64,000 nucleotides of DNA from Modestobacter sp. DSM 44400 (GTDB taxonomy: Bacteria; Actinomycetota; Actinomycetes; Mycobacteriales; Geodermatophilaceae): contig NZ_FNOZ01000006.1 of the NCBI RefSeq assembly GCF_900107175.1, positions 62,001-126,000 of the forward strand, written 5' to 3'. Positions 36,998 through 57,082 of this stretch are shown here, one piece after another (the stretch's first letter is position 1; every line of letters starts with the position of its first letter). The position numbers and the translations under genes were made by a program. Under the pieces are notes generated by a model. It made no database searches. It had not been told where the DNA came from and worked only from the letters and a program-made list of their open reading frames with translations.

Positions 36998-37749
36998 ATC
37001 TGACCCTGAAGGTCTGGCGGCAGGTCAACCCCGCCGTCAAGGGCAAGATGGTGAGCTACCACCTCACCGACGTCTCGCCCGACATGTCGTTCCTCGAGAT
37101 GCTCGACGTCCTCAACGAGCAGCTCATCCTCGACGACGACGACCCGATCGCCTTCGACCACGACTGCCGTGAGGGCATCTGCGGCTCCTGCGGCCTGATG
37201 ATCAACGGCATCGCGCACGGCCCGGAGCAGACCACCACGTGCCAGCTGCACATGCGGTCGTTCTCCGACGGTGACGTCATCGACATCGAGCCGTGGCGAT
37301 CGGGTGGTTTCCCGGTGGTCAAGGACCTGGTGGTCGACCGGTCGGCGTTCGACCGGATCATCGCCGTCGGCGGGTTCATCACTGCACCGACCGGCACCGC
37401 CCCGGAGGCGCACGCGGTAGCGGTGCCGAAGCAGGACTCCGACGCCGCGTTCGACGCCGCCACCTGCATCGGCTGCGGCGCCTGCGTCGCCGCCTGCCCG
37501 AACGGCTCGGCGATGCTGTTCACCGCCGCCAAGGTGTCCCACCTCGGGCTCATGCCGCAGGGCCAGCCGGAGCGGGACGCCCGGGTGCTGAAGATGGTGG
37601 CGCAGCAGGACGCCGAGGACTTCGGTGGCTGCACCAACATCGGCGAGTGCTCCGCCGTCTGCCCGAAGGGCATCTCGATGGAGACCATCTCCCGGCTCAA
37701 CCACGACCTGCTCGGCGCGCTGCGCGCCGGGGCGGTGCCGACCAGCTGA
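36994..37749 (+). CDS. sdhB: Succinate dehydrogenase iron-sulfur subunit
   Basis: A 251-residue subunit with three clusters: 2Fe-2S ([15 protein letters not shown] ... TTTCQLH), 4Fe-4S ([14 protein letters not shown]) and 3Fe-4S ([14 protein letters not shown]). Translation starts at GTG 36994 within a GTGA overlap. An internal 93-bp stretch (37174-37266) is repeated at 56636-56728, far downstream. Confidence 0.95.
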
Positions 37750-37803
37750 ACCCGGCCCATGTCCGTCTTTCGTGCGGTGGAGCGGTCTGGCGGCCCGGCG
37801 CGA

Positions 37804-39219
37804 TCATTGCTCGCAGTGTGCGGGTGGGGCCGGGCGTGGCCAACGGGGGCGCTCGATCAGCGACCCGAGCTGGCACAGGTCGGCCTCGCTATGGCGCGGT
37901 CCGATGAGCTGGGCACCCACGGGCAACCCGTCGCCGTCCGCCCCCACCGGCACGCTGAGCGCGGGATGTCCCGTGACTGACGCCAAGGCGGTGAGCCGCG
38001 AGTACGCCGCTGTCACCGGTTCCGCCCTGGCCCCGATGCCGACGGTGTCCGCGCTGGGCGGGGCCGCGGTCACCGGCACGGACGGCAGCAGGAGCGCGGC
38101 GAGCCGCTGTGCGCGCAGCATTGCATCGACGTCGCGGCGCAGCTGGGCCGCCACCCGCAGCGCGAGAACGTAATCGGTCCCGAGCACCCCGGCTCCAGCA
38201 CGCAACAGCGCCGCAGTCTCGGGTGTGAGCGCGTCGTCGGCGAGCAACTCCGGCGTGGCCCAGTGAGTCGCCGCCTCGACCATCATGATCACATAGCTCG
38301 CCGGGCGGGCGAGGCGGGCTCGCGTCAGCTCGACGTCAACGACCTCCACCCCGGCCGCGGATAAGCGCGCGGCGGTGGCCTGCAGGGCCCGCTGGACGGC
38401 GGGGGCGACCCGGTGCGTGCACTCGCTGGCCAACCGTCCGACCCGTAGACCGGCGGTGCCGGCCGGAGCCGAATGCGGCAACGCGCTCAGGACCTGGTGG
38501 GCAAGCAGACAGTCGGCCGCGGTGCGGGCGATCGGTCCCACCGTGTCGAGGGACGGCGCGAGCGGGGACACGCCCTGCATCGGCACGGCGCCGGCGGTCG
38601 GGCGCAGCCCGGCCACCCCGCATAGTGCGGCGGGGATGCGGATCGAGCCGCCGGTGTCGGTGCCCAATGCGAGGCGGACGATGCCCGCCGCGACCGCCGC
38701 GGCTGAGCCGCCACTCGAGCCGCCGGTGCCTCGCGCCAGGTCGTGAGGGTTGCGGCAGCCCGGGGTGAGCACTCCCCAGGCGAGTTCATGCATGCGTGTA
38801 CGACCGATGAGGACGCCGCCGGCCTCGGTCAGCCGCTGCCAGACCACCGCATCGGTGGGGGCCACCCTGGCTGCGGAACCGGTGGTCCCGTTGCCGACCC
38901 GCTGCCCTGCGACGTCGATGTTGTCCTTGATCGCGACGGGCAGCCCCTGCAGCGGCCCCGGTGCGGCGAGGTTGGCCGCGGCGTCCTCGTACAACGCGAC
39001 GAACGCGCCCAGTTCGATGGCCGACCGCGCCCTCGCCAGTGCGTCGGCGACCCCCCGCGGCCGCGACTCCGCCGGCCGCATCGGCCGCGGCAACCCCTTC
39101 CTGTCCACCCCGGTCTCCTCGACCGTTGGCAGCAGTCCGTCGACATCCAAGTGGCGAGCGGCCTCCCGGAGCGCCCGGACGGCGCTGGCTACGGGATCAG
39201 CCACGCGTGGGCCCAGCAC
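37804..39219 (-). CDS. Amidase-signature family hydrolase
   Basis: A 471-residue amidase. The Ser-cisSer-Lys triad is visible: lysine in PVAIKDNIDVAG, serines in RGTGGSSGGSAAAVAAG and DTGGSIRIPAALCG. It would cleave a carboxamide or imide to acid and ammonia. It is downstream of the crotonase gene, with which it overlaps by about 20 bp, so both are in one operon of the catabolic island. GTG at 39219 (or GTG 39204). It may act on a ring-opened amide intermediate; that is inference. Confidence 0.9.
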   Translation of the reverse strand: MLGPRVADPVASAVRALREAARHLDVDGLLPTVEETGVDRKGLPRPMRPAESRPRGVADALARARSAIELGAFVALYEDAAANLAAPGPLQGLPVAIKDNIDVAGQRVGNGTTGSAARVAPTDAVVWQRLTEAGGVLIGRTRMHELAWGVLTPGCRNPHDLARGTGGSSGGSAAAVAAGIVRLALGTDTGGSIRIPAALCGVAGLRPTAGAVPMQGVSPLAPSLDTVGPIARTAADCLLAHQVLSALPHSAPAGTAGLRVGRLASECTHRVAPAVQRALQATAARLSAAGVEVVDVELTRARLARPASYVIMMVEAATHWATPELLADDALTPETAALLRAGAGVLGTDYVLALRVAAQLRRDVDAMLRAQRLAALLLPSVPVTAAPPSADTVGIGARAEPVTAAYSRLTALASVTGHPALSVPVGADGDGLPVGAQLIGPRHSEADLCQLGSLIERPRWPRPAPPAHCEQ

Positions 39220-39889
39220 CGGACCACCCGTCCAGGTTGCGGGTGCGTTCCTCGCGCAAGCGAGCGAGCAAGTCCCCGCTTGCGACGATGTCCCGGGTCC
39301 GGGTCACCGCGGCTGGTTGGAGGTCGCGCAGTTGCAATGCCAGCTCCGCAGCCCGTGCCCACGGGTCTCCGGCGACCTCGGTGACGACGCCGACGGCCTC
39401 GGCCTGCTCGGCCGTGAGACGTCGTCCGGTGAGGGTGAGATCCAGTGTCCTGGCGCGTCCGACCAGGCTGGGCAGGATCCAGGCGCCGACGGCCAAGCCG
39501 TGTCCGGGTCCCAGCCAGCGCAGCCAGGCGCGGGGCGAGGCGATCCGCAGGTCCGCCGCGGTCGCAAGCTGGGCCCCGCCGCCGACCGCCGGACCGTCGA
39601 GGACGGCGATCACGGGGGCCGACCGACAAACCATTACCTCGTAGCAGGCGTAGAGGCGATCAGAGACGCGCGCTCGTTCGTCGTCCGGGATGTGCAGGTC
39701 GGCACCGGCGCAAAAGATGCCCGGCGTCGTGCTACCGAGCAGTGCTATGTGACTGGGGTCGGTCTGCAACGCATCGATCAACGCGTCCACCGTCTGCGAG
39801 TCGACCGCGTTACGTCGCTCGGGACGGTTGAGCCGAATCCGGACGACGCCGTCCGCCGCCGGCTCGTAGACCAGTGGCGACGAGAACAC
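39197..39889 (-). CDS. Enoyl-CoA hydratase/isomerase family protein
   Basis: A 230-residue crotonase-fold protein, shorter than the usual 255-260. Oxyanion-hole segments FCAGADLH and GPAVGGGAQLATAADLRIA are present. The region that normally holds the catalytic glutamates (GxPE...) reads SPRAWLRWLGPG, so standard hydratase chemistry is doubtful. GTG at 39889 follows AAAGGGG; the frame extends upstream to 39928. A partial GntR site lies about 95 bases upstream. Confidence 0.85.
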   Translation of the reverse strand: MFSSPLVYEPAADGVVRIRLNRPERRNAVDSQTVDALIDALQTDPSHIALLGSTTPGIFCAGADLHIPDDERARVSDRLYACYEVMVCRSAPVIAVLDGPAVGGGAQLATAADLRIASPRAWLRWLGPGHGLAVGAWILPSLVGRARTLDLTLTGRRLTAEQAEAVGVVTEVAGDPWARAAELALQLRDLQPAAVTRTRDIVASGDLLARLREERTRNLDGWSGAGPTRG

Positions 39890-39983
39890 GGGACGCCCCT
39901 TTCTGGAGATCTCATGACGGCTGGACATCGCGGGAGGGCGGGAGGAACCGCGCTTCGAAGCTTGTTCCCGAGCGAGAGGAGGA

Positions 39984-39993
39984 TGATATACCG
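39984..39993. promoter_or_regulatory. Partial GntR operator in the echA-gntR intergenic region
   Basis: TGATATACCG matches 8 of 10 positions of the TGGTATACCA palindrome found at three other promoters of the island. The 544-base intergenic region 39890-40433 otherwise holds no recognisable gene; it is visibly less GC-rich than the flanks. Confidence 0.35.
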
Positions 39994-40433
39994 GAGTCGC
40001 GCTGCGGCGACGTTTCTTCGCTCGGCAGCTGCCTGACGATCGAGGTAGAAGAATCTTCAGCAGCTCATCGGCTGCCAGCTCCCCTGTCCGCGAGCGGGCA
40101 CCTACCGACGAGAGCCCGGACGACGGCGTCGCCGCTTCGACCGCACTCAGCGAGCGCGGCCGGACGCCGCTCCGCGCACCGTGATGATATCGCCGTCGTC
40201 GTCTCGGTGAGCTGTCTCGTCATGATCCCCACCCGCCTTCCCGCATACGGCGTTCTACTTCTTCGACGTCCCGCGCTCGCTTGGAGGGACCATCCCCGCC
40301 CCTGTGCGGGGCGACGCGACGCGACGCGAGGTACCATCATCGCCGGGAGCGCGACTGGCATGCCTGGGCTGCGACTGAATACGGGCGCCGCCGCACACCG
40401 CATGACAGCCCGCAATGATCCGAGGGAAGTCCA

Positions 40434-41117
40434 TTGTCCACCTTCAGCAGCAAGACCGACATGGTGACGGCCACGCTGCGCGAGTTGATTTTGGTGGGCG
40501 ATCTCAGACCGGGCGAGCAACTTCGTCAGCGCGAACTGTCGGCACGCCTCTGCGTGAGCCAGACGCCGGTTCGAGAGGCCCTTCGCCGGCTGGAGTCGGA
40601 GGGGCTCGTCGTCTCCGACTCCTACCGTGGGTCCACCGTCGCCGAAGCTGGACTAGGCGCGACGGAGGAGAACTACCAACTGCGGGCGGCATTGGAAGGA
40701 TTGGGCTCCTCGCTTGCGGCAGCGGTCATCACGGAGCCACAGCTGGCATCGCTCGAGGCGATGAACAGGCGGCTGACCGAGGTGACCTCCGATCACGAGC
40801 AGTACGCAGAACTAAATCGCAAGTTCCATTTTGCGGTGTATGAGTACGCCAATAGCCCCCTCCTGCTTTCATTGATGCGGCTGCTCTGGCAGTCAATGCC
40901 GGGCGGACCGAAGGTGCTGCGGTCGCACGCGGAGTCGGTCGCCCAGCACGGCACGCTCCTCGATGCTCTTCGTGATCGCGATGCAGAACGGGCGGCGGAA
41001 GTGACCCGGAGGCACATCCTCGGGTCAGCCCATCTTGACAGCGGGACCGGCGAGGAGTTGGCGGAGCGGGGAACCGACTACGCGCCTACGCCGCCCGGGG
41101 AGTCACCCAACCGGTGA
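40434..41117 (+). CDS. GntR-family (FCD) transcriptional regulator
   Basis: A 227-residue regulator. The N-terminal winged helix has the GntR core GEQLRQRELSARLCVSQTPVREALRRLESEGLV; residues 75-210 form an FCD ligand-binding domain with metal-binding histidines (HFAVYEY, SHAESVAQHG). It starts with TTG at 40434 after GAGGGAAG. Central position among the catabolic operons and the recurring TGGTATACCA palindrome, which fits FadR/FCD operators (TNGTNNNACNA), make it the likely regulator of the island. Its 3' end overlaps livF by 15 bp on the other strand. Confidence 0.9.
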   Translation: MSTFSSKTDMVTATLRELILVGDLRPGEQLRQRELSARLCVSQTPVREALRRLESEGLVVSDSYRGSTVAEAGLGATEENYQLRAALEGLGSSLAAAVITEPQLASLEAMNRRLTEVTSDHEQYAELNRKFHFAVYEYANSPLLLSLMRLLWQSMPGGPKVLRSHAESVAQHGTLLDALRDRDAERAAEVTRRHILGSAHLDSGTGEELAERGTDYAPTPPGESPNR

Positions 41118-41864
41118 CTCGTTCTCGTCGGCTATTGCACGGGAGCCGTCAGCTTCATGGGCGCTGCTCACACCGATCAGTCGGCGGAGCGTCTGAGTAT
41201 CCGCTCTGAGCAGCTGAGGGCGGTCGGTCTCATAGATGACCTGGCCCCTGCTCAGGATAAGGGCGCGATCCACCCGCTCAAGGGTGAAGCCAACCTTCTG
41301 TTCCACCAGAAGTGCCGATGTTCCGCGCCGGCGCAACTCATCGATAGCCTCTCCCATGCGGCCGACCGTCTGCGGGTCCAGGCCTTCCGTCGGCTCGTCC
41401 AGCAACATCAATTTCCCATTGCAGACCATCGCCCTGCCCATCGCGAGCATCTGCTGCTGCCCTCCACTCAGCTTTCCCGCGGGCACGCTCCAGCGCTCCC
41501 GAAGAGCCGGGAAGTACTCCAGCACTTCGTCCGCGGTCCAGTCCCGGTCGCCGACCCGGCGGCTGGCTATACGAAAGTTTTCCCGCACGGTCAGGGAGGG
41601 AAAGATCCGATGACCCTGGGGAACCAGCGACATCCCCAGCCGAGAAATCCGCTCGGCTGCCAGGGAGGAGATCCGTCGACCCCGGAAGGTGACCTGCCCT
41701 CGCCGCGGCTTCAGCAGGCCTGCGACGGTGTGCACCAGCGTCGACTTGCCCATCCCATTACGCCCGAGCAGGCCGACAACCTCACCCTCCCCGACCGAGA
41801 GGCTCGTCCCGTGGAGGATCTGGCTCGACCCGTAGTAGGTGTCGACGCTGTCGATCTCAAGCAT
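41103..41864 (-). CDS. Branched-chain-type ABC transporter ATPase LivF
   Basis: A 253-residue ATPase with Walker A GRNGMGKST, signature LSGGQQQMLAMGRAM and Walker B LMLLDEPTEGLD. The family pattern (IFPSLTVRENF) is LivF. It pairs with the LivG ATPase, which it follows with an 8-bp overlap. The island context suggests import of the catabolic substrate, not of leucine. Confidence 0.92.
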   Translation of the reverse strand: MLEIDSVDTYYGSSQILHGTSLSVGEGEVVGLLGRNGMGKSTLVHTVAGLLKPRRGQVTFRGRRISSLAAERISRLGMSLVPQGHRIFPSLTVRENFRIASRRVGDRDWTADEVLEYFPALRERWSVPAGKLSGGQQQMLAMGRAMVCNGKLMLLDEPTEGLDPQTVGRMGEAIDELRRRGTSALLVEQKVGFTLERVDRALILSRGQVIYETDRPQLLRADTQTLRRLIGVSSAHEADGSRAIADENESPVG

Positions 41865-42612
41865 CGGACATGTCTCCTAGATAGACCTGCAGCACCTCTT
41901 GGTTCACCGCGACCCGTCCCGGGACGTCCTCGGCGAGGACGCTTCCCTGATGCAGGACGGTGACGCGGTCCGCGAGGGCAAAGGCGACCTCCATGTCATG
42001 CTCGATCATGATGATCGTGATGTCCCTCGGCAGTGCAGCCAACAGATTGGTCAGGCGGATGGCGTCAGCAGGTGCCAGCCCGGCCGTGGGCTCGTCGAGC
42101 AGCAACACCCGCGGCTGCTTGCTCATGGCGAGCACGATCTCCATGACGCGCTGCTGCCCATAGGCCAGCTCGCGCACGGGCCAGTCGGCGAGGTCGGAGA
42201 ACTCCCACTCGGTCAGCAGGGCATTCGTTCTGGCCCTGATCCCCGGTAGCGATCCCAGGTCCCGCCAGAACACCCGCCGCGACCTGGCTTCCGACGCCAG
42301 GGTGATCTCGATGTTCTGCCGCACGGTCAGTTCGTCGAACAGGTTGTTGATCTGGAAGGTACGGGCCAGACCCATCCGGGCACGTTGGTACGCGGGCTTC
42401 CTGGTCACCTCGCGTCCGAGCATCTCCACCGAGCCTTTCGACGGGCGAAGTTGTCCTGCGAGCACGTTGAACAGCGTCGTCTTTCCCGCACCGTTGGGTC
42501 CGATGAGCACTCGGCGCTCCCCGACCGGAACCTCGATCGTGACATCACTATTGGCGAGAAACGACCCGAACCGCGTGTCTATGCCCCGTGCTGCGATCGC
42601 CATATCCGTCAC
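41857..42612 (-). CDS. Branched-chain-type ABC transporter ATPase LivG
   Basis: A 251-residue ATPase with Walker A GPNGAGKTT, Walker B VLLLDEPTAGLAP and H-loop IEHDMEVAF. The signature motif reads LAYGQQRVMEIVLAM, normal for LivG. It starts at GTG 42612 inside a GTGA overlap with livM; ATG 42603 is an alternative. The long frame upstream is antisense to livM. Confidence 0.92.
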   Translation of the reverse strand: MTDMAIAARGIDTRFGSFLANSDVTIEVPVGERRVLIGPNGAGKTTLFNVLAGQLRPSKGSVEMLGREVTRKPAYQRARMGLARTFQINNLFDELTVRQNIEITLASEARSRRVFWRDLGSLPGIRARTNALLTEWEFSDLADWPVRELAYGQQRVMEIVLAMSKQPRVLLLDEPTAGLAPADAIRLTNLLAALPRDITIIMIEHDMEVAFALADRVTVLHQGSVLAEDVPGRVAVNQEVLQVYLGDMSDA

Positions 42613-43667
42613 GTGTGCCGCTCCTCCACCAAATCGTCGGTATCGGCCGGCACCGCGACGTCGGTCTCTCCGGCAGCGGCGCGCGTGGGCGACTCGGCGG
42701 TCTTGCGTCGCGCCCTCCGTCGCAGGTAGGCGATGCGACCGAGTATCCCATCGCTCATGAACAGCGCGGTCAGGACATAGACGATCCCGAGGACAAAGGT
42801 CCACCGTGATGTAAGCGTGCTGACATAGAGTTCCAGGGACAGGATGACAGCGGCTCCGAGGAACGGTCCGAAGAAGAACGCTGCACCACCGAGGATGGCG
42901 AAGACCATGACTTCCGCACTGAGCAGGAACGCCATGTTGGACGGGGAGGCGCTACCGAGCAGGTATGCGTCGAGCAGCCCCGCCACCGCCGAGAAGGCAC
43001 CCGATACCGCGAAGGCATAGACACGGTAGCTGCCCACCCGGTAACCGGTCGCGGCCAGTCGGGACTCGCTTTCACGCAATCCCGTGATCGCCATGCCGAC
43101 AGGGGAACGCATGAATGCCCACATCAGTGACAATGAGACCACCACCATTGCCAGCGCAAGCCAGTAGAAGGCCGACGCGGAACCCGGGATCGGAACACCC
43201 TCGCGTGTGATGCCCGAGATTCCGTTGTCACCACCGGTCAACTCGACCTGCTGGAACGCGAGCCCGTACGCGGCCTGAGCCAGGGCAAGTGTCAACAGAA
43301 GGAGATAGATCCCCTTGGCTCTCAGATTGAACAAGCCGAAAACGACGCCGAGCGCCGTACCCGCCACGAGTGTCAGGACCACGATGACCACGAACGGTAG
43401 ATCCGACCGCGTGCTGGCGATACCAACCACATACGCACCCAGGCCGAAGAATGCAGCGTGTCCGAGCGACGGCATTCCGCCGAACCCGAACACGATATTG
43501 AACGCTGTGGCGAACAGCCCGAGAGCCAAGATCCGCGTCGCCACGAACAGGTAGAAACTCGGAAGGACGAACGGTAGAGCCAGAAGCACGAGCAGGAGCA
43601 CGCCAAGGACGACCGCGGAGCGCAGGCGTCGGCTCTTCACGTGATCCCCTGGCGACGGCAGGTTCAT
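42609..43667 (-). CDS. Branched-chain-type ABC permease LivM
   Basis: A 352-residue permease with about nine membrane helices; FGFGGMPSLGHAAFFGLGAYVVG and RESESRLAATGY are LivM landmarks. A cytoplasmic C-terminal tail of about 45 residues is Arg/Thr-rich. ATG at 43667 overlaps the livH stop (ATGA). Confidence 0.92.
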   Translation of the reverse strand: MNLPSPGDHVKSRRLRSAVVLGVLLLVLLALPFVLPSFYLFVATRILALGLFATAFNIVFGFGGMPSLGHAAFFGLGAYVVGIASTRSDLPFVVIVVLTLVAGTALGVVFGLFNLRAKGIYLLLLTLALAQAAYGLAFQQVELTGGDNGISGITREGVPIPGSASAFYWLALAMVVVSLSLMWAFMRSPVGMAITGLRESESRLAATGYRVGSYRVYAFAVSGAFSAVAGLLDAYLLGSASPSNMAFLLSAEVMVFAILGGAAFFFGPFLGAAVILSLELYVSTLTSRWTFVLGIVYVLTALFMSDGILGRIAYLRRRARRKTAESPTRAAAGETDVAVPADTDDLVEERHT

Positions 43668-44527
43668 CGCGACTCCACCTTCCCCAGCAGTCCGTTCGGT
43701 CGGAACGCAAGAAAGAGCGCGACCGGGGCGTAGATGGTGAACAGGGACCACTCAGGGAACAGCACCTTGCCGAACTGGTCGAGCAACCCCACGGCGAACG
43801 CGGCGATCAACGCTCCCGGCACCGAGCCCAGGCCTCCGACGACAACCACCACGAGGGCGAGTAGGAGAACGTCGAGGCCGGTGTCGGGCGACAAGCTCGT
43901 CAATGCCCCTCCCCAGACTCCTGCGAAGGCCGCCAGCGCGGTTCCGGCGCCGAAGACGAGAAGGAAGATCAGGGGCACCCGGATCCCGATGGTGCGGGCA
44001 ATCTCCTGGTCGTCGACGGCGCTCCGAACCTTCGCCCCGATCGAGGAGAAGCGCAGGAACGCCATGATGAGGGCAGCAAGGACGAGCGCCAGGACAATCA
44101 GGAACGCGCGGAACTTGGGGAAGATCACTGATCCGAAGAGTTGCATCGAACCCTCCAACCCGGCAGGCGTCGGGGGGGAGATCGGGCTGCCCCCGTACTG
44201 CGTCAGGAGCAGATCACCGATCATCAGCGAGACGCCGACGGTGAGGATGATCTGGGGCAGCTCCTGGTTCAGCAGCCGATGGAGCAGCAACCGCTCCACG
44301 AGCATGCCGATCACGGCGGTCACAACTACTGCGACTACCAGGGACAACCAATAGCTGCCCGTTCTGACGTAGAGGTCGAAGGCCAGGTAACCACCGACGA
44401 GATAGAAGGCGCCGTGCGCGAGGTTGATAGTGCGCATGAGACCGAACGTGATCGTCAGCCCACTGGCAACAAGGAACAGCAGGGAGCCGAACGCCAGGCC
44501 GTTCAGGACATTGGACAGCCATACCAT
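43664..44527 (-). CDS. Branched-chain-type ABC permease LivH
   Basis: A 287-residue permease: FGLMRTINLAHGAFYLVGGYLA at the N-terminus and GGLGSVPGALIAAF near the C-terminus are LivH signatures. It follows the binding-protein gene by 13 bases and overlaps livM by 4 bp. It forms the channel with LivM. Confidence 0.92.
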   Translation of the reverse strand: MVWLSNVLNGLAFGSLLFLVASGLTITFGLMRTINLAHGAFYLVGGYLAFDLYVRTGSYWLSLVVAVVVTAVIGMLVERLLLHRLLNQELPQIILTVGVSLMIGDLLLTQYGGSPISPPTPAGLEGSMQLFGSVIFPKFRAFLIVLALVLAALIMAFLRFSSIGAKVRSAVDDQEIARTIGIRVPLIFLLVFGAGTALAAFAGVWGGALTSLSPDTGLDVLLLALVVVVVGGLGSVPGALIAAFAVGLLDQFGKVLFPEWSLFTIYAPVALFLAFRPNGLLGKVESR

Positions 44528-44540
44528 GTCGACTCTCCGA

Positions 44541-45821
44541 CTACTTGGCCCACGTACCCTTGAGCTTGTCGTACGGCGGGAACTGCAGGTACTCGTCCAC
44601 GTCGTAGGTGTAGAACTGATTCACGGCCGGCACAGTGTCCACCACCTTGTTGACCCACTTGCCGTCCTGCTTGGTGACCTTTCGCATGTACACGTCGTAG
44701 ATGGCCTGCCCGTACTCATCGAACCGCAGGGCGCCGCGCGGAGCGTCGATGGACACATTGCGCATCGCATTGGTGATTCCATCGCCCGTCGGCTCCCCCT
44801 TGACATCGGAGAGCGCAGCCTCGAGCGCCTGGGCGGCGGCCCAGCCGTCCTCGGCGTACTGGTTCGTCGATCGGTCGTACTTTTCAGTCCACGCGTCGAC
44901 GAACGTCTTGTTGGCGGGGTTATCGATGACCGGGGAATAATGAAGGCTGCTCATCACACCGTCAGCCGTCTCGCCCATCGTCGGGAGGAGCTGCTCATCG
45001 GTGGTGGATCCCTGCGCAAAGATGGGCGTGTCCAGCCCGAAGCCCCGGTAGGCCTTGAGGAAGCGGACGGCGTCGCTGCCGGGGGTCACCGCGAAGACCA
45101 CGTCGGCGTCACGGTTGATCTGGGTGACGTAGGGAGCCCAGTCCTGCGTGGCCAACGGTGCATACAGTTCCTGCACGACCTTGCAGCCGGCATCCTCATA
45201 CGTTCGCGCGAAGCCCCCGGAGGCCTCCCAGCCGAACGAGTAGTCGAGCCCCACGATGGCCGCGGTCTTCAGACCGAGCTCTTTGCACACGTAGTCGCCG
45301 GCCGGCATGGTGTCCTGCGAACCGGTGTAGGACACGCGGAAGAGGTTGCCGCCCTTGGTCCGCGTGAGCCCGTCAGCACCCGCGACGGTGATCATGAGGG
45401 GAACGCCAGCACTCTCGAGATAGGGAGCTACGGCGTAAGCGACCCCTGAGTTGACGAGGCCGATGACGATGCCCGCGCCCTCCTGCTGGACGAGCTGGCG
45501 CGCCTTCGTCGTGGCCACGCCGGGATCGTTTGCCGGGTCTTCTTTCACCACGTTGATCCCGTAGTCGCTGAGCTGCCCACCCTTGCTGTCCAGGTACAGC
45601 TCGAATCCAGCGTTGACGTCCTCCCCGAGGGCGGCGAACGGACCGGTCAGGGGATTGAGCAGACCGACGGTGAGAGAGCCGTTCGCGCCCTCCTGAGCGC
45701 TGCCGCTCCCGCTGTCGGCCGACACCCCACCGCTCGACGGCGCTTGGCTGCCACACCCGGCAAGAGCCAGGGTGGCCGCTGTGAGGGCCACCAGTGGGCG
45801 AGTCGCGCGCCGTTTGCTCAT
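44541..45821 (-). CDS. Branched-chain-type ABC substrate-binding lipoprotein LivK
   Basis: A 426-residue binding protein. The signal peptide ends in ALAGC (lipobox) followed by a Ser/Gly/Gln-rich linker. The mature part begins VGLLNPLTGPFAALGEDVNAG, typical of family 6 Leu/Ile/Val-type receptors, which in catabolic clusters often bind aromatic acids or amides. AAGGAGCG precedes the ATG. A perfect GntR-type palindrome lies 31 bases upstream, so this promoter is probably repressed without inducer. First gene of livKHMGF. Confidence 0.93.
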   Translation of the reverse strand: MSKRRATRPLVALTAATLALAGCGSQAPSSGGVSADSGSGSAQEGANGSLTVGLLNPLTGPFAALGEDVNAGFELYLDSKGGQLSDYGINVVKEDPANDPGVATTKARQLVQQEGAGIVIGLVNSGVAYAVAPYLESAGVPLMITVAGADGLTRTKGGNLFRVSYTGSQDTMPAGDYVCKELGLKTAAIVGLDYSFGWEASGGFARTYEDAGCKVVQELYAPLATQDWAPYVTQINRDADVVFAVTPGSDAVRFLKAYRGFGLDTPIFAQGSTTDEQLLPTMGETADGVMSSLHYSPVIDNPANKTFVDAWTEKYDRSTNQYAEDGWAAAQALEAALSDVKGEPTGDGITNAMRNVSIDAPRGALRFDEYGQAIYDVYMRKVTKQDGKWVNKVVDTVPAVNQFYTYDVDEYLQFPPYDKLKGTWAK

Positions 45822-45851
45822 GTTCGCTCCTTCGATGGTTGATTCAACGTT

Positions 45852-45861
45852 TGGTATACCA
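45852..45861. promoter_or_regulatory. GntR operator upstream of livK
   Basis: Perfect palindrome TGGTATACCA. Read on the minus strand its wider context (ATGGTATACCAAA) is identical to the site at 53310. It lies at promoter distance from livK. The 418-base region 45822-46239 between the divergent operons has a second such site and no recognisable gene. Confidence 0.65.
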
Positions 45862-46175: not shown

Positions 46176-46185
46176 GGGTATACCA
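46176..46185. promoter_or_regulatory. GntR operator upstream of the molybdenum hydroxylase operon
   Basis: GGGTATACCA, one base from the perfect palindrome, 54 bases before the first hydroxylase gene. Confidence 0.55.
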
Positions 46186-49481: not shown

Positions 49482-49960
49482 AAGACCTGCAGCTGATCAC
49501 TCTGACCGTCAACGGCACCGAGCACGAGCTGGTGGTGGAGTCCCGCCGGACGTTGGCCGACGTGCTCCGGCACGACCTGGGCTACACCGGCACGCACCTG
49601 GGCTGCGAGCACGGCATCTGCGGTGCGTGCACGGTGCTGATCGACGGATCGCCCGCCCGGGCCTGCCTCACCTTCGGGGTCCAGGCCGACGGCTGCTCGA
49701 TCAGCACAGTCGAGGGCCTGGCGTCCGACGGTGAGCTCTCCGACCTGCAGCGCGCATTCTCCGAGCGCCATGCCCTGCAGTGCGGCTTCTGCACCCCGGG
49801 GTTCCTGATGCTGGCCGAGGCCTACCTGGCCGAGTACCCCAACCCCAGCACCGAGGAGGTCCGGGAGGTCGTCGCCGCCAACCTCTGCCGGTGCACCGGA
49901 TATCAGGGCATCGTCGAGGCGATCTCCGACGTCGCGAGGTCGCGGCGGGAGTCGCGGTGA
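49478..49960 (+). CDS. Molybdenum hydroxylase 2Fe-2S subunit (CoxS-type)
   Basis: A 160-residue subunit with two 2Fe-2S clusters: plant-type CEHGICGACTVLIDGSPARAC and the helical-domain CGFC ... CRCTGY. GTG at 49478 lies in a GTGA overlap with large subunit 1, and its own stop overlaps large subunit 2. It is the only small subunit for two large ones. Confidence 0.93.
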   Translation: MKDLQLITLTVNGTEHELVVESRRTLADVLRHDLGYTGTHLGCEHGICGACTVLIDGSPARACLTFGVQADGCSISTVEGLASDGELSDLQRAFSERHALQCGFCTPGFLMLAEAYLAEYPNPSTEEVREVVAANLCRCTGYQGIVEAISDVARSRRESR

Positions 49961-52386
49961 CCAGCCTGCTCGGCGACCTGACGGTGGCGCCGCCGGCACC
50001 GGTGCGTCCCCGGCCGTCACCGGCGCCCCCCCGGCCGGCATCGCCCGAGCCGTCCGCCGTCCCGGACACCGAGCCACCGGCCGACGCACCGGGCCTGCCG
50101 CCGGCACCGGACGCCGGCCCCGAGCGGTCCCGGTCGGTCATCGGGTCACGGGTTCCCCGGCACGAGGACGACCGGCTGGTGCGCGGGCAGGGCAAGTTCG
50201 TCGACGACGTCGACCGGCCGCGGCAGGCACACGTCCGCATCGTCCGCTCGACCGTCGCGCACGCGCGGCTGGTCGCCGTGGACGTGGCGGCGGCCCGGGC
50301 GGTGCCCGGAGTGGTGTTCGTGCTCACCGGGGCCGACCTGATCGGGCTGCCACCCATCCCCATCCGGCTGCCCCGCGGGGACGAGCCTCCCGGGTGCCTC
50401 CAACCGGTGCTGGCCCACGACGAGGTCCGCTACGTCGGCGAGCCGGTCGCTGCGGTGGTCGCCGAGGATCCCTACCTGGCCGAGGACGCCGCCGAGCTGG
50501 TCACCGTCGAGTACGCCGACCTGCCGGTCGTGGTGGACGCCTCGACGGCCGAGCCGGCGACGGGCTTCGACGTGAGCTACGGCGATGCCGAGGCCGCCTT
50601 CGCCACGGCGAGGCACGTGGTGGAGATCGACGTGTCCGTCGGGCGGCACGCCGCGGTGCCGATGGAGCCGCGCGGCCTGGTCGCCGACTACGACGAAGCC
50701 ACCGGCGTGCTCGAGATCTGGGGCGCGACCAAGGTCCCGGTGTTCAACCGCAACGTGATCGCCACGATGCTCGACCTGCCCGCCAGCCGGGTGCACCTGC
50801 ACGCCATGGACGCCGGGGGCGGCTTCGGTGCCCGCGGGGAGTTCTACCCGGAGGACCTGCTGATCCCCTGGCTCGCCCGCCGGCTGCGTCGACCGGTCAA
50901 GTGGGCCGAGGACCGCGCCGAGAACCTGGTGGCGCTCAACCACTCGCGCCAGCAGCGGCACCGGATCGCCGCGGCGTTCGCCGTCGACGGCACCCTGCTG
51001 GCGCTGCGCGACCACGTGGTGCACGACAACGGGGCCTACCTGCGCACGCACGGGCTGCTGGTCCCCGAGCTCACCGTGACGATGCTGCCCGGCCCCTACC
51101 GGCTGCCCGCCTACGCGGCGCGGATCGACGTCGTCCTGACCAACAAGACCCCGTGCGGCACCTACCGGGCCCCGGGCAGGTACGAGGGCACCTTCGCCCG
51201 CGAGCATCTCCTCGACGTCGCCGCCGACCGGATCGGCATCGACCGGGCCGAAGTGCGCCGGCGCAACCTGCTGACCCCCGAAGAGCTGCCGCACCGCCGC
51301 GACCTGCGGGCGCTGGGCACCGACGTCGTCCTGGATGCCGGGGACTATCCCGGCCTGTTCGCCACCGCGTTGGCCCGCACCCGCGACTGGGCGACCGAGG
51401 CCAGGCAGCTGCGCGAGCGGGGCCGCACGGTCGGTCTGGGGTTCGCAGTCTTCCTGGAGAAGAGCGGCCTGGGCCCCCATGAGACCGCCGACGTCACCGT
51501 CGAGCAGGACGGCGAGGTCACCGTGCACTCCGGCGGCACGTCGCTGGGACAGGGCATCGAGACCGTCCTGGCCCAGATCGCCGCCCAGCGCCTGGACATC
51601 GACGACCGGGCGGTGCACGTGATCAACGGTGACACGAACCTGCAACCCTTCGGGGTGGGCTCCTGGGCCAGCCGGTCCACCGTGGTCGGAGGGAGCGCGG
51701 TCGACCTGGCCGCCACGGCGGTGCTCGAGCGCGCGCTCCAGGTCGCGGCCCGGGTACTCGGCGTGCCCGCCGAGCAGGTGCGGCTGACCGGGGGCTGCTT
51801 CTCCGCCATCGGAGAACCCGGCCGCCGGCTCAGCTGGGGGGACGTCGCCGGCGCCTGCGCGCCGGGCAGCCCGCACCTGCGGCCCGAGGACACCCCCGGG
51901 CTCTCCGCCCGCCGGGTGTTCGCCGTCGACCACATGACCTACCCCTACGGCGTGCACGTGGCGCTCGTCGACGTCGACCGGGACACCGGGCACGTGGAGG
52001 TGCTGCGCTACCTGGTCGCCTACGAGGTCGGCCGGGCGATCAACCCGACCCTCGTCGAGGGGCAACTCATCGGGGGCGTCGCCCAAGGGCTGGGCGGCGC
52101 ACTCTACGAGAGCTTCGTCTACGACCAGCAGGGCCAGCCGCAGGCGACGACGTTCATGGACTACCTGATGCCCACCGCCGAGGAGGTCCCGCGGCGCGTC
52201 GACACACTCGTCACCGAGGATGCGCCCAGTCCGGGTAACCCGCTGGGCGTCAAGGGCGCCGGCGAGGGCGGGATCACCGCGGTCGCGGCGGCGACGGCCA
52301 ACGCCGTCCGCGATGCCCTCGGCCTGACCGGTGATGTCGGCGCCCTGCCGCTAAGCCCGCACCGGGTCGTCGCCCTGTCCCGCTGA
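49957..52386 (+). CDS. Molybdenum hydroxylase large subunit 2 (CoxL-type)
   Basis: An 809-residue second molybdopterin subunit, only distantly similar to subunit 1. It keeps AGGGFGAR, TSLGQGIETV and the catalytic segment GVKGAGEGGITAV; the active-site loop is GTYRAPGRYEG, again not CO-type. About 60 N-terminal residues are Pro/Ala-rich and precede the usual start of the fold (IGSRVPRHEDDRLVRGQGKF), which is unusual for the family. GTG at 49957 overlaps the 2Fe-2S gene. Confidence 0.9.
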   Translation: MTSLLGDLTVAPPAPVRPRPSPAPPRPASPEPSAVPDTEPPADAPGLPPAPDAGPERSRSVIGSRVPRHEDDRLVRGQGKFVDDVDRPRQAHVRIVRSTVAHARLVAVDVAAARAVPGVVFVLTGADLIGLPPIPIRLPRGDEPPGCLQPVLAHDEVRYVGEPVAAVVAEDPYLAEDAAELVTVEYADLPVVVDASTAEPATGFDVSYGDAEAAFATARHVVEIDVSVGRHAAVPMEPRGLVADYDEATGVLEIWGATKVPVFNRNVIATMLDLPASRVHLHAMDAGGGFGARGEFYPEDLLIPWLARRLRRPVKWAEDRAENLVALNHSRQQRHRIAAAFAVDGTLLALRDHVVHDNGAYLRTHGLLVPELTVTMLPGPYRLPAYAARIDVVLTNKTPCGTYRAPGRYEGTFAREHLLDVAADRIGIDRAEVRRRNLLTPEELPHRRDLRALGTDVVLDAGDYPGLFATALARTRDWATEARQLRERGRTVGLGFAVFLEKSGLGPHETADVTVEQDGEVTVHSGGTSLGQGIETVLAQIAAQRLDIDDRAVHVINGDTNLQPFGVGSWASRSTVVGGSAVDLAATAVLERALQVAARVLGVPAEQVRLTGGCFSAIGEPGRRLSWGDVAGACAPGSPHLRPEDTPGLSARRVFAVDHMTYPYGVHVALVDVDRDTGHVEVLRYLVAYEVGRAINPTLVEGQLIGGVAQGLGGALYESFVYDQQGQPQATTFMDYLMPTAEEVPRRVDTLVTEDAPSPGNPLGVKGAGEGGITAVAAATANAVRDALGLTGDVGALPLSPHRVVALSR

Positions 52387-52423
52387 CCGCCCTTCCATCC
52401 ATCCGTCTGCAGTAGGAGATGCC

Positions 52424-53200
52424 ATGCGCCTGACCAACGAGGTCGTCCTCCCCGCCCCACCGGAGCAGGTCTTCCGGCTGCTCAACGACGTGCAACGGGT
52501 GGCCCCGTGTCTGCCGGGGGCGACCCTGGAGGGCGCCTCGGGTGCCGACGCCTACCAGGGCAAGGTCAAGATCAAGGTCGGCCCGATCACAGCGGCCTAC
52601 CAGGGCACGGTCCGTTTCCTCGAGGTCGACGAGGCCGCCAGGCGGCTCGTGCTGGACGCCAAGGGCGCGGACCAGCACGGCAGCGGCAGCGCCGAAGCCA
52701 AGGTGAGCGTGGCCATCACCGCGCACGCCGAGGGCAGCACCCTGTCGCTGGACACCGACCTGGTGATCCGCGGCAAGGTCGCCCAGTTCGGTCGCGGCGC
52801 CATCAACGAGGTGTCGCAGAAGCTGATGGAGCAGTTCGCCCGCAACCTGAGCGGCCTGCTCAGCGAGCCGGCCCCCGCGGCCGACGGCGTCGCACCACCG
52901 ACCGCCGTCCCCACCCCTCGGCCCGCGGCCGGCGACGGCGCCGTACAACCCGCGGGGACCGTGGCCGGCTCGACGGACCACGGCTCGCTGAACGCGTTGT
53001 CCCTCGTCGTCCTGCCCCTGCTCAGGCGCGCCGCGCCGGTGGTGGGAGTGCTGGCCGCGGCGCTCACCGCGGTGGCGCTCGTCCGGCGGGGCGGCGGACG
53101 GGGTGTCCTGCTCGACGAGGTCGTTCCCGCCGTGATCCGCGTCGACGGGGAGCGGGTGCAGGTGCAGGTGCGCCGCCGGATCGAGACCCTCCGGCGCTGA
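52424..53200 (+). CDS. CoxG-family SRPBCC protein
   Basis: A 258-residue protein. Residues 1-145 are a CoxG/SRPBCC domain (FRLLNDVQRVAPCLPGATLEG; INEVSQKLMEQFARNL). A Pro/Ala linker leads to one membrane helix (about 190-215) and a short charged end, as in CoxG proteins that recruit the hydroxylase to the membrane. GTAGGAG precedes the ATG. Probably the last gene of the hydroxylase operon. Confidence 0.88.
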   Translation: MRLTNEVVLPAPPEQVFRLLNDVQRVAPCLPGATLEGASGADAYQGKVKIKVGPITAAYQGTVRFLEVDEAARRLVLDAKGADQHGSGSAEAKVSVAITAHAEGSTLSLDTDLVIRGKVAQFGRGAINEVSQKLMEQFARNLSGLLSEPAPAADGVAPPTAVPTPRPAAGDGAVQPAGTVAGSTDHGSLNALSLVVLPLLRRAAPVVGVLAAALTAVALVRRGGGRGVLLDEVVPAVIRVDGERVQVQVRRRIETLRR

Positions 53201-53309
53201 CCGGACCGGACGGCGCTGTCCGCGGGCGGGGTGCTGTGCCAGGCGCCCCTACCGGCGCACGGCACCTCCCCTGCGACGTCTTGACGCCGCCCGCCTCGCC
53301 AGGGCAGGA

Positions 53310-53319
53310 TGGTATACCA
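53310..53319. promoter_or_regulatory. GntR operator upstream of the alpha/beta hydrolase gene
   Basis: Perfect TGGTATACCA palindrome 20 bases before the hydrolase start, close enough to overlap the promoter or transcription start. Confidence 0.65.
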
Positions 53320-53338
53320 AATAGCAAAGGGAGGCGCA

Positions 53339-54220
53339 GTGACGTTCGCGACCACCGACGACGGGGTCCAGCTGTACTACGAGGAGACCGGTGCCGGCAC
53401 CCCGCTGGTCTTCGTGCACGAGTTCGCCGGTGACCACCGCTCGTGGGAGCCGCAGCTGCGTCACTTCAGCCGGCGCTACCGGTGCATCGTCTACGCGGCC
53501 CGGGGCTACCCGCCCTCCGACGTCCCGACCGATGAGGCCAGCTACGGCCAACTGCGGGCGGTGGAGGATCTGCGCAGCGTGCTCGACGCCGCCGGGGTCG
53601 AGCGGGCGCACGTGGTGGGCAACTCCATGGGCGGCTTCTGCGCCCTGCACTTCGGACTCCAGCATCCCGACCGCGCACTGTCGCTGGTGCTGGCCGGCTG
53701 CGGGTACGGCGCACACCCGGACAAGGAGCCGACGTTCCGGTCGGAGTCCGAACAGATTGCCCTCGCCTTCGACACGGAGGGCTCGGCCGCCATGTCCCGG
53801 TGGTACGGCCTCGGTCCGGCACGCGTGCAGTTCCTGGCCAAGGACCCCCGCGGGCACGCCGAGCACGTACAGGTGCTGGCCGAGCACGATGCCAAGGGCG
53901 CTGCGTTGACGATGCGCGCGGTGCAGAAGGCGCGGCCCTCGCTGTACGGACTGCGCGCCGAACTGGCTGCCCTTGAAGTCCCCACGCTGATCGTGGCCGG
54001 CGACGAGGACGAGGGCGTCCTGGAGACCGACCTCATGCTCAAACGCACGATCCCCCGATCGGGGCTGCTCGTGCTGCCCAAGAGCGGCCACGTGACGAAC
54101 CTGGAGGAGCCGGCCGTCTTCAACGACCACGTCGAGCGCTTCCTCGGCCAGGTCGAGAACGGCCGCTGGAGCCGCCGGGACCCACGGTCGCAGAGCGCGT
54201 CCACGACCGGCGTCAAGTAA
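53339..54220 (+). CDS. Alpha/beta-fold hydrolase
   Basis: A 293-residue hydrolase with nucleophile elbow VVGNSMGGFC, acid region VAGDEDEGVLE and catalytic histidine in SGHVTNLEEPAVF. Overall similar to 3-oxoadipate enol-lactonase or MhpC-like C-C hydrolases, used after ring cleavage. GTG at 53339 follows GGGAGG. First gene of the right-hand operon of the island. Confidence 0.88.
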   Translation: MTFATTDDGVQLYYEETGAGTPLVFVHEFAGDHRSWEPQLRHFSRRYRCIVYAARGYPPSDVPTDEASYGQLRAVEDLRSVLDAAGVERAHVVGNSMGGFCALHFGLQHPDRALSLVLAGCGYGAHPDKEPTFRSESEQIALAFDTEGSAAMSRWYGLGPARVQFLAKDPRGHAEHVQVLAEHDAKGAALTMRAVQKARPSLYGLRAELAALEVPTLIVAGDEDEGVLETDLMLKRTIPRSGLLVLPKSGHVTNLEEPAVFNDHVERFLGQVENGRWSRRDPRSQSASTTGVK

Positions 54221-54247
54221 GCCCATCACCGAGAAGAGGAACAGCAC

Positions 54248-55045
54248 ATGGACCTGCAGTTGACGGGCAAGATCGCGCTGGTCACCGGCGGCAGCAAGGG
54301 AATCGGTCGCAAGTCCGCCGAGCAGTTGGCGGCTGAGGGATGCGACGTCGTCATCGTCTCACGCACCGAGTCGGAGATCCTGCAGGCCGCCCAGGAGATC
54401 GCCGCCGAGAGCGGCCGCACGGTGCTGGGCCTGACCGGCGACATGAGCGTAGCTGCGGACGTCGAGGGCGTCGTGGCGACGACGCTGGAGCGGTTCGGCC
54501 ACATCGACATCGTGGTGACCTGCGCGGGCTCCTCCCCTGGCGGCCTGCTCGAGGAGCTCACCGAAGAGCAGTGGCTGGGCAGCATGCAGCTGAAGTTCCT
54601 CGGCTACGTGCGCACGGTGCGTGCCGTCATCGGCCACATGCGCGAGCGCGGCGAGGGCTCGATCGTGCTGGTCGTCGGCAACGACGGGCTCAAGCCGTCG
54701 TACTGGGAGATGACCGCCGGTGCCGCCAACGCCGCCGACATCAACTTCGCCTCCTCGGTGGCCGAGCAGTACGGGCCACTGGGCGTGCGGGTGAACACGG
54801 TCAACCCGGGACCGGTCAACACCGGCCGCTGGGAGGGCCTGGAGGCCGCCTTCGCCCGCGACAAGAAGGTTGACGCCGCACGGGCGCATGAGCTGGCCGT
54901 CAGCTCGCTGCCGCTGGGGCGGATCTGTGAGCCCGACGAGGTTGCCAACCTGGTCACCTTCCTGGCCTCACCGCGCTCGAGCTACATCAACGGGGCCCAT
55001 ATCCCGGTCGACGGGGGCCAGCGCAAGGCGCTGATGGACGTCTGA
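54248..55045 (+). CDS. SDR-fold protein lacking canonical catalytic residues
   Basis: A 265-residue short-chain dehydrogenase/reductase fold. The cofactor motif TGGSKGIG and the SDR end (NPGPVNTGRW; INGAHIPVDGGQRKAL) are normal. In the active-site region, VVGNDGLKPSYWEMTAGAAN stands where Ser, Tyr and Lys (S...YxxxK) would be, and lysine aligns with asparagine. It may bind NAD(P) with altered chemistry. It starts 27 bp after the hydrolase gene with AGAGGA upstream and is followed by a strong hairpin. Confidence 0.85.
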   Translation: MDLQLTGKIALVTGGSKGIGRKSAEQLAAEGCDVVIVSRTESEILQAAQEIAAESGRTVLGLTGDMSVAADVEGVVATTLERFGHIDIVVTCAGSSPGGLLEELTEEQWLGSMQLKFLGYVRTVRAVIGHMRERGEGSIVLVVGNDGLKPSYWEMTAGAANAADINFASSVAEQYGPLGVRVNTVNPGPVNTGRWEGLEAAFARDKKVDAARAHELAVSSLPLGRICEPDEVANLVTFLASPRSSYINGAHIPVDGGQRKALMDV

Positions 55046-55066
55046 GCCTGCGCCACCCACCCGGGT

Positions 55067-55103
55067 GAAGCGGTGGCCGTCAGTCGGTGCTGGCCACCGC
55101 TTC
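55067..55103. terminator. Hairpin between SDR and CoA-transferase genes
   Basis: Perfect 12-bp stem GAAGCGGTGGCC (55067-55078) with its complement (55092-55103), extendable by wobble pairing, loop 13 bases. Suggests that the CoA-transferase gene has its own promoter or is fed by partial read-through. Confidence 0.65.
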
Positions 55104-55176
55104 GCCACATCCGGGACCGGTCTTCCACCGCCCGTGATCCGACCTCCCGACGCACACCGGACCGGAAGGACCCAGC

Positions 55177-56403
55177 ATGCAACCGTTGGCAGGAGTGACG
55201 GTGGTGGACTTCACCCGCTATCTGTCCGGGCCCTACTGCACGATGATTCTCGGTGACTACGGCGCGGACGTGGTCAAGGTCGAGCGCCCGGCGGGCGGAG
55301 ACGACTCACGGGACATGGCCCCGTTCGTCAACGGCGAGAGCTACCCCTCCGCGATGGTGAACCGCAACAAGCGCTCGCTGGCGCTGGACCTGAAGACTGC
55401 GGCCGGACGGCAGGTGGCGCTGGGGCTGGCTGCCCGCGCGGACATCGTGGTGGAGAACTTCCGGCCCGGGGTGATGAGCCGGCTGGGGTTGGACTACGAC
55501 GCCGTGCGGGCGGTCAACCCCGAGGCGGTCTACTGCTCCATCACCGGTTTCGGGCAGACCGGACCGGAGAGCCACCGCGCCGGGTTCGACATCATCGCCC
55601 AGGGCATGAGCGGCTTCCTGCGGATGACCGGTGCGCCCGGCGGGGAACCGGCGAAGTTCGGTATCGCGGTCAACGACCTGACCGCCGGGCTGACCGCCGC
55701 GCACGCCGTCCTGGCCGGCTACATCCATCGCCTGCGCGAGGGCGGCGGTCAGTACATCGACGTCGCGCTGGTGGATGCGGGGCTGGCGCTGACGGTCTGG
55801 GAGGCAGGCTCCTGGTTCGGCGCGGGCCGTGAGCCGGCCCCGGAAGGAACCCGGCACCGGCACAACGCCCCGTATCAGGCCTTCCGGACGACGGACGGCT
55901 ACGTGACGATCGGCGCCAACAACGACCGCCTGTGGACGCGTCTGTGCCGTGAGGTGCTGCACCGCCCGGACCTGCTCGAGCGTCCGGAGTACGCCGACGC
56001 GCGTTCCCGACCGCAGCATGTGGACCAGTTGACCGCCGAACTGGAGGAGATCCTGCAGCGGGAGTCGACCGACACCTGGGTGAAGGCGCTGGACGCCGCG
56101 GGCATCCCCGGGGGTCCGGTGCTCACCTACGGTCAGGCCCTGGGTCAGTCGCAGGTCGCGGCGCGGGAGATGGTCGTCGAACTCGATCACCCGGTGATCG
56201 GGCCGATGCGCGCACTGGGCATGCCGGCGAAGCTGTCGGAGACCCCGGCAACCATCCGGCGTCCCGCACCTCTGCTGGGTCAGCACAGCCGCCACGTCCT
56301 CGCCGAGGCCGGCTATGACGATGCCCAGATCGATGCCTGGGTCGCCGCCGGAACCGTGGGCGAGCCCGCGGCCAGCGGCTCACCCACCCACCACCAGGAT
56401 TGA
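55177..56403 (+). CDS. CaiB/BaiF family CoA-transferase
   Basis: A 408-residue family III CoA-transferase. The N-terminus (VTVVDFTRYLSGPYCTMILGDYGADVVKVERP) and the catalytic aspartate in AVNDLTAGLTAAHAV (Asp167) are clear. It moves CoA between carboxylic acids and would activate the acid made by earlier steps for crotonase-type chemistry. GGAAGGA precedes the ATG. Last intact gene of the island. Confidence 0.92.
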   Translation: MQPLAGVTVVDFTRYLSGPYCTMILGDYGADVVKVERPAGGDDSRDMAPFVNGESYPSAMVNRNKRSLALDLKTAAGRQVALGLAARADIVVENFRPGVMSRLGLDYDAVRAVNPEAVYCSITGFGQTGPESHRAGFDIIAQGMSGFLRMTGAPGGEPAKFGIAVNDLTAGLTAAHAVLAGYIHRLREGGGQYIDVALVDAGLALTVWEAGSWFGAGREPAPEGTRHRHNAPYQAFRTTDGYVTIGANNDRLWTRLCREVLHRPDLLERPEYADARSRPQHVDQLTAELEEILQRESTDTWVKALDAAGIPGGPVLTYGQALGQSQVAAREMVVELDHPVIGPMRALGMPAKLSETPATIRRPAPLLGQHSRHVLAEAGYDDAQIDAWVAAGTVGEPAASGSPTHHQD

Positions 56404-57082
56404 CCGCCGCTCTATTCAGCCGTCAAGCCACCTCCCTATCGCTGGCCGCGCGGGACACTTTTCCAGCCGACTCTGAACCTGCAGCTGGACCACGTGCTGG
56501 GCCGTGCTCACCTTGGCGTGCTCAGCAGGTTCAGTGTCCGGCATCACCTCTGGCACCAGCGCGGCGGTGACCCCGGCCCCGTGCCGGGCCACGGCCGGAG
56601 TCCGGGCGCCGCTGACCACCACGTCATCACCCTCCGGCATCTGCGGCTCGTGCGGCCTGATGATCAACGGCATCGCGCACGGCCCGGAGCAGACCACCAC
56701 CTGCCAGCTGCACATGCGGTCCTTCTCCTTGGGTGCAGCTATCGCCGGTGCTGGTGACGGGATCTAGCGTTGTACCTGGTCAGCGGCGGAGCAGTCGGCG
56801 TGGGCACCGAGACGCCTCGTGACGGAGATCTTGGCCGATTGGTCCTGTTGAGCTGGGGGTTGGGCCGGTAGCGTCTGAGGACGTGTTCGTGCGGACGTCG
56901 ACTCGCCGAAACAGCGCCGGGGTACCGGCGCACCGACACCATCAGGCGCTGACCGTCGACGTCGAGGCGAATCTCGGATGAGTGCCGACCCGGGCGCGGT
57001 CTTGCGGTGTTCCCCGCATTCCAGCGGCCCTGCAACGGCGCCAGAGCTGGCGGAGCACCGCAAGAGCCGGAGGAGCGCGGAA
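56404..57082. other. Non-coding junction region at the right end of the island
   Basis: About 680 bases with no intact gene. It contains the sdhB fragment at 56636-56728. The segment 56410-56630 reads weakly protein-like on the minus strand ([19 protein letters not shown]) but matches nothing I recognise. The segment 56740-57060 has short overlapping ORFs without a convincing start. It looks like a recombination scar. Confidence 0.55.
56636..56728 (+). pseudogene. Duplicated internal fragment of sdhB
   Basis: Ninety-three bases identical to 37174-37266 of sdhB except for three substitutions, in the same orientation. It encodes the 2Fe-2S core [18 protein letters not shown] through HMRSFS and then departs abruptly. 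No start, no remainder of the gene. Its left boundary is sharp; the right boundary shows faint similarity for about 25 more bases. Confidence 0.9.

Follow-up and report, generated by a model that had tools for sequence, protein, structure and literature searches.

A lineage-specific catabolic island next to sdhB in Modestobacter sp. DSM 44400, and a displaced 93-bp sdhB copy that most likely is not its border

How did a cluster of catabolic genes come to lie directly behind sdhB in Modestobacter sp. DSM 44400, and what is the meaning of the short direct repeat that seems to enclose it? We address this question in a 64,000-nucleotide stretch, hereafter the window, which covers positions 62,001 to 126,000 of NZ_FNOZ01000006.1 (assembly GCF_900107175.1) and lies inside a 147-kb contig of a 5.0-Mb draft genome in 182 contigs (G000 in our numbering; the other G numbers denote genomes compared). 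A first-pass annotation, made from the letters of the stretch, had read a 93-bp segment of sdhB and its displaced copy as brackets of a catabolic island that may have integrated by recombination at sdhB, or have brought the fragment along from a donor, and might be excised again through the repeats. Our comparisons point to a different history, to which we assign a probability of about 55%: the island would have been inserted in one event, and a short piece of sdhB would have been pasted beyond its right edge in another, later event.

First, the repeat itself is exactly as originally described in position, orientation, length and number of substitutions. Comparison of the window with itself yields two 93-bp copies that are identical at 90 of 93 positions, lie on the same strand with their starts 19,462 bp apart and form the strongest dispersed match of the window (E = 3.8e-38). 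The identity ends abruptly at both sides, with none beyond either end, and the three differences, at copy positions 15, 66 and 87, all fall on third codon positions and are all synonymous C/G exchanges. When 374,269 bp of the genome were compared with themselves, four pairs had a length of 40 bp or more and an identity of 88% or more; this one was the longest, the other three measuring 44-57 bp. Short repeats of such size are not unique to this genome: of the 200-kb samples of two control genomes, that of G010 contained four pairs, among them one of 69 bp at 94% and one of 64 bp at 89% with spacings of about 3 kb, and that of G004 two, including pairs of 59-60 bp at 90%; one of the pairs from these samples is a near-tandem one of 1,050 bp. 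Since the genome is a draft, the copy might in principle be 93 bp misjoined during assembly, but this is the least credible of the explanations we weighed, as the copies differ at three sites and occupy distinct contexts within one contig, and a collapse would not yield a piece of sdhB cut at both sides.

Second, comparison with relatives reveals what the locus looks like without the island. A match to sdhB was found in 19 of the 22 same-genus genomes (the three without one, G011, G014 and G015, are each 70-80% complete), and in 18 of these 19 the distance between the sdhB stop codon and an SGNH hydrolase gene is 72 to 4280 bp, with no island in between; the corresponding distance in the window is 19.3 kb. 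In the remaining genome, G005, the SGNH core was not found in the roughly 6.5 kb between sdhB and the contig end. The closest relative by sdhB DNA, G012, has an interval of about 75 bp with a hairpin-like sequence, the interval of G003 holds a nucleotidyltransferase gene (PF14907), an endonuclease/exonuclease/phosphatase (EEP) gene (PF03372) and a DCC1-like gene, and the intervals of G022 and G010 reach about 4.3 kb, that of G010 with a long extra stretch. An EEP gene is present in 8 of the 15 intervals searched (13 from the same genus and two from another genus of the family; six further same-genus intervals lay outside this search). These comparisons indicate that the sdhB-SGNH interval is variable, its gene content turning over between species, and that the island is new to this lineage, a lineage-specific insertion within that stretch, because the interval of all 18 relatives with linked sdhB and SGNH genes is too short to hold it. 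In line with this, neither the sdhB fragment nor an ancestral island appeared in the genus and family genomes compared. A search with the DNA of the whole island in 112 family genomes, with two candidates scored in each, returned partial blocks only, for example in G017, and no congener among the 22 showed a second long sdhB match when 24 candidates were scored in each. We also considered an ancestral second sdhB gene and rejected it: sdhB matches occur in 98 of the 112 family genomes (8 candidates scored per genome), and two long matches were elsewhere found only in G055, a draft with 4% contamination in which they lie on different contigs.

Third, the repeat does not mark the edges of the island. 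At the left edge, similarity to G012 continues up to the sdhB stop codon (37749), as read from a very permissive blastn comparison of which only the junctions were used, the rest being background, and the edge thus read lies 483 bp past the repeat and downstream of the whole sdhB gene. On the right, the edge most likely falls within 56404-56440, at the apparent beginning of a decayed remnant of the native EEP gene, and the sdhB copy follows about 200-230 bp farther on. The core of this remnant (56440-56499) matches the EEP tail of G005 over 62 aligned columns at 76%, and 56477-56499 matches the same place in seven other relatives at 22 of 23 bases, or 21 of 23 in G003. All eight matches have the orientation of sdhB and fall within the sdhB-SGNH interval. 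The controls, 184 chunks of 2 kb each drawn from G004 and G010, reached 36.5 bits at most. The interval match scored 42.8 bits in G005, 38.3 in five other genomes and 33.7 in G003, and it exceeded every control in six of the seven genomes in which it was the best-scoring match; in G013 the best score (45.5 bits) belonged instead to a palindromic element beside the SGNH stop codon. Over a wider alignment, the identity of the remnant segments to EEP genes is just 50-60%, and the EEP genes themselves are 74-96% alike in the pairs compared. The sdhB copy thus most likely sits in decayed native DNA past the right edge of the island. Even if the EEP reading were to fail, the repeats would not bracket the island, as had been proposed, because its left edge alone already lies past sdhB.

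Several other identities for the sequence at 56404-57083 were tried and set aside. Phages gave no match to it; among plasmids there were six records, four over the sdhB copy and two with short matches; a minus-strand gene across the sdhB copy had no Pfam match and found weak matches in 7 of the 22 congeners, the best with an E value of 0.017; and the sole match to a known RNA was a riboswitch located far off. Separately, relatives of the palindromic element, here taken as window 56985-57069, occur at 73-79% at several places in this genome and in others of the genus.

The position of the edges bears directly on the idea that the island entered by recombination at sdhB, leaving direct repeats that mark its ends and permit excision. 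The direct orientation, the 97% identity and the location of the island between the copies agree with such a process, yet the island edges lie off the repeat ends, and one sdhB gene is complete while the other is a stump cut on two sides, and we therefore consider it highly improbable. Integration of the Campbell type was rejected on the same pattern, as it would leave one 3'-truncated and one 5'-truncated sdhB, and att-type repeats were rejected because the edges do not coincide with them, neither an integrase family nor a tRNA was found, and the product of a crossover is not the empty site. The absence of mobility genes noted in the first-pass annotation held up: Pfam detected no integrase or transposase family in the 16 island genes or in flanking open reading frames (ORFs), and there is no tRNA in the window. 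A crossover between the copies would create a protein of 103 residues, namely SdhB 1-91 followed by 12 unrelated residues, in place of 251, and would remove the 4Fe-4S stretches recognised by Pfam at residues 148-229. Because SdhB would be truncated in this way, the repeats are predicted to offer no harmless exit, and excision through them would damage a respiratory enzyme.

Where, then, did the copy come from, and when? Judged by parsimony against the sister genomes G012 and G005, the copy changed at positions 15 and 87 and the native sdhB at 66; G013 carries the base of the copy at 15 and the native bases at 66 and 87. Among 34 sdhB segments of relatives (19 from genes at full length, the other 15 available only around the segment), the bases of the copy at 15, 66 and 87 occur in 12, 23 and 12, respectively. 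Under random uniform change, three synonymous C/G exchanges have a chance of 0.0002 and three synonymous changes of any kind one of 0.014. The native sdhB is the nearest sequence found to the copy, followed by G100 and G102 from another genus with four differences. The pattern of differences in this alignment of the copies with sdhB of relatives, a check that the first-pass annotation had put forward, favours, on three sites only, an origin from the working sdhB of another strain. Moreover, the two changes on the copy branch compare with 6.6-8.1 expected at the third-position rate (divergence 0.14-0.18) for a silent copy dating back to the separation from the sister species. This deficit suggests a copy of more recent date than the surrounding decay, unless it was refreshed by gene conversion.

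The same data allow us to weigh a scenario with one event, in which a break between sdhB and the EEP gene was repaired with catabolic DNA and 93 bp of resected sdhB were copied as templated filler, the three differences arising by later changes. Source and copy are near each other, in the same orientation and with abrupt ends, and Ku is present, all of which would suit such a repair. However, about 200 bp including decayed native EEP sequence separate the copy from the island, and a silent copy should have gained changes of all kinds rather than three synonymous C/G exchanges, and more of them given the decay of its surroundings, which makes this scenario unlikely.

We therefore return to two events as our preferred explanation. 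The catabolic cluster would have been inserted into the variable sdhB-SGNH interval, an insertion seen directly in the comparison with relatives, probably by illegitimate recombination, a mode of joining that we infer because the edges show no integrase, tRNA or repeats. In doing so it may have replaced a nucleotidyltransferase gene and the front of the EEP gene, and the EEP tail left behind would have decayed. At a later time, a short segment of a functional sdhB, more likely that of a close relative than that of the cell itself, would have been pasted into the decaying tail with no homology at its ends, by end-joining or short-patch illegitimate recombination; its place in decayed native DNA and its low divergence are the reasons why we believe the pasting to be later. 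Its abrupt ends, with no homology beyond them, fit illegitimate insertion of a short piece, and Ku was found in 22 of the 23 genomes of the genus, this one included. The receiving sequence at the ends of the copy is too decayed to read for microhomology. Taken together, the repeat would have had no role in the entry or exit of the island, and the copy looks like a later repair scar.

A number of points weigh against this explanation. The EEP remnant is short and decayed, and its score in G003 lies within the range of the controls; the EEP-tail matches in relatives are homologous, hence not independent tests; and 17 bp of the EEP core also have an exact counterpart at a single site beyond the interval in G020, in G002 and in G016. 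The argument on the donor hangs on three sites, and C/G exchanges are the commonest kind among sdhB genes. Ectopic gene conversion by the intact sdhB could make an old copy look young. In addition, the copy lies 19 kb from its source. A fragment captured at random from a genome of 5 Mb would, by simple arithmetic, end up so close about 1% of the time, and this proximity favours a local or locus-guided process over random capture. Finally, the explanation leaves unaccounted for a 34-bp neighbour of the copy that is shared with a broken rpsD gene.

This neighbour has one further occurrence in the genome, on contig C130, which aligns with a single 3-bp gap and a genome-wide E value of about 1e-5. 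Even when three mismatches were allowed, the 26-base core of the neighbour was found in no congener among the 22. On C130 it adjoins the break of rpsD, and the similarity of relatives begins at the end of the shared sequence. The truncated rpsD itself (L212 on C130, 1836-2163, minus strand) has lost its first part and stands behind a TetR-family gene; the stub keeps part of the S4 domain, where the protein of a relative has S4 N-terminal and S4 domains. The stub is native rather than captured. We considered whether the 34-37 bp sequence is the mark of a small mobile element, as yet unrecognised, that breaks or picks up pieces of host genes. The sequence occurs at two places here and in none of the congeners, both places are breaks next to a piece of a housekeeping gene, and 12-bp inverted repeats flank the sdhB copy together with its neighbour. 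But these repeats are one of six inverted pairs in the stretch, such a perfect pair arises in 41 of 1000 shuffles, and none was found at the rpsD site; there are only two copies of the sequence, no target duplication was seen by eye, the 34-37 bp sequence has no exact match in viral contigs and no match in phages, and the rpsD stump is native. Such an element is accordingly very unlikely, and we lend slightly less credence still to the more specific claim that the sdhB copy and the broken rpsD are its footprints.

Table 1. Features of the sdhB-SGNH region, in window coordinates.
Feature	Position	Strand	Basis or remark
Intact sdhB, 251 aa	36994..37749	+	Pfam Fer2_3 and Fer4; island starts right after the stop codon
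Source-side repeat copy, sdhB codons 61-91	37174..37266	+	Window self-comparison
Catabolic island, lineage-specific	37750..56418		Absent from the interval of relatives; Pfam/NCBIfam; right edge within 56404-56440
Amidase	37804..39219	-	Pfam PF01425, E 4.5e-80
Enoyl-CoA hydratase family	39197..39928	-	Pfam PF00378
GntR/FCD regulator	40434..41117	+	Pfam PF07729, PF00392
Branched-chain-type ABC transporter, five genes (two ATPases, two permeases, binding protein)	41103..45821	-	Pfam
Molybdenum-hydroxylase genes CoxM, CoxL1, CoxS, CoxL2, CoxG	46240..53200	+	Pfam; syntenic in G314
Alpha/beta hydrolase (PF00561) and SDR (PF13561)	53309..55045	+	Pfam
CaiB-type CoA-transferase, last island gene	55177..56403	+	Pfam PF02515, E 5.7e-132
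Putative decayed 3' part of native EEP gene	56419..56520	+	Best core 56440-56499; interval match in 8 of 8 relatives keeping EEP
Perfect 12-bp inverted repeats around sdhB copy and neighbour, weak	56607-56618 / 56777-56788		Inverted-pair search
Displaced copy of sdhB codons 61-91	56636..56728	+	Self-comparison; allele comparison with relatives
34-bp sequence common only to G000 contig C130 (37 bp there)	56728..56761	+	At the break of truncated rpsD
Possible last EEP codons, weaker evidence	56938..56968	+	E 7e-4 against G021; 0.002 against G016 and G010
Palindromic element by SGNH stop codon, probably native	56995..57061		Also there in G013
SGNH/GDSL hydrolase ORF, native right neighbour	57083..57994	-	Pfam PF13472, E 2.7e-29

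The gene content of the island (Table 1) suggests breakdown of compounds that are presumably N-heterocycles or amides, although none of nine island proteins passed a specific NCBIfam cut-off among the best 25 families of each. Its G+C content is 0.695, compared with 0.705 at 30-37.7 kb and 0.727 at 57-64 kb of the window, and that of the transporter genes is 0.63-0.65. Related clusters occur elsewhere. G017 has a syntenic transporter block (68-86% amino acid identity) with CoxM, L, S and G at another chromosomal place; G157 carries ten island-type genes in 18 kb (GntR, two CoxL, CoxS, CoxM, enoyl-CoA hydratase, SDR, CoxG, hydrolase and CaiB); and in G314 the genes from CoxM to SDR have counterparts whose proteins are 58-82% identical, near which lie an amidase (46%) and a GntR regulator (56%). 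In Pseudonocardia dioxanivorans CB1190 a CaiB-type CoA-transferase is 78% identical, and no other island genes were found in the 21 kb compared. An order-wide DNA search of 397 genomes, 76 of them unscored, found no single donor of the whole island. Judged by these likenesses, the gene set is of an ordinary, reshuffled actinobacterial kind.

Beyond the right edge, the SGNH ORF as called probably exceeds the real gene by about 100 codons, with a real start near residue 101; in 15 of the 19 congeners that match at 62% identity or more, the best match starts at residue 90-103. Between this gene and an aquaporin gene lies a glutathione-independent formaldehyde dehydrogenase (window 58045-59514; TIGR02819, above cut-off), and in G012 the SGNH and aquaporin genes are about 440 bp apart without it, which may reflect a further gain. 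A 57-bp repeat at window 57702-57758 has a 93% copy on contig C87, and sequences resembling it were seen by eye in the sdhB-SGNH interval of G021, G004 and G010. At the other end of the window there are a c-di-GMP-II-GAG riboswitch (647-731; 50.3 bits, above the gathering score) and imperfect repeats at 1541-1882 with offsets of about 60-300 bp.

We believe that this locus is a clean case in which relatives display the empty site of a catabolic island and an eye-catching direct repeat is not its border. Moreover, the synonymous differences hint that chromosomes can acquire short DNA from close relatives by pasting that needs no homology at its ends. With regard to gene content, the actinobacterial Cox/CaiB clusters of G314, G157 and G017, together with the CaiB gene of P. 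dioxanivorans, combine the same kinds of genes in shifting ways; the complete set was in the order of the island in none of the genomes compared and at the sdhB locus in none of the 18 intervals measured. With regard to the copy, short-patch double illegitimate recombination inserts a small fragment of genomic or foreign DNA whose two ends lack extended homology, as seen for the sdhB copy, but it has been described for patches shorter than 93 bp and in a competent gammaproteobacterium, and it is not known from this bacterial group. End joining by Ku and LigD (PMC7719229) could join unrelated ends here too, given the presence of Ku, and no junction signature proves such joining at this site. 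Homology-facilitated illegitimate recombination (for example, PMC3240628) joins foreign DNA by homology at one end and without homology at the other; the 93-bp copy differs in that neither of its ends is homologous to the receiving place, yet a process of this kind would naturally put DNA of relatives near the matching locus.

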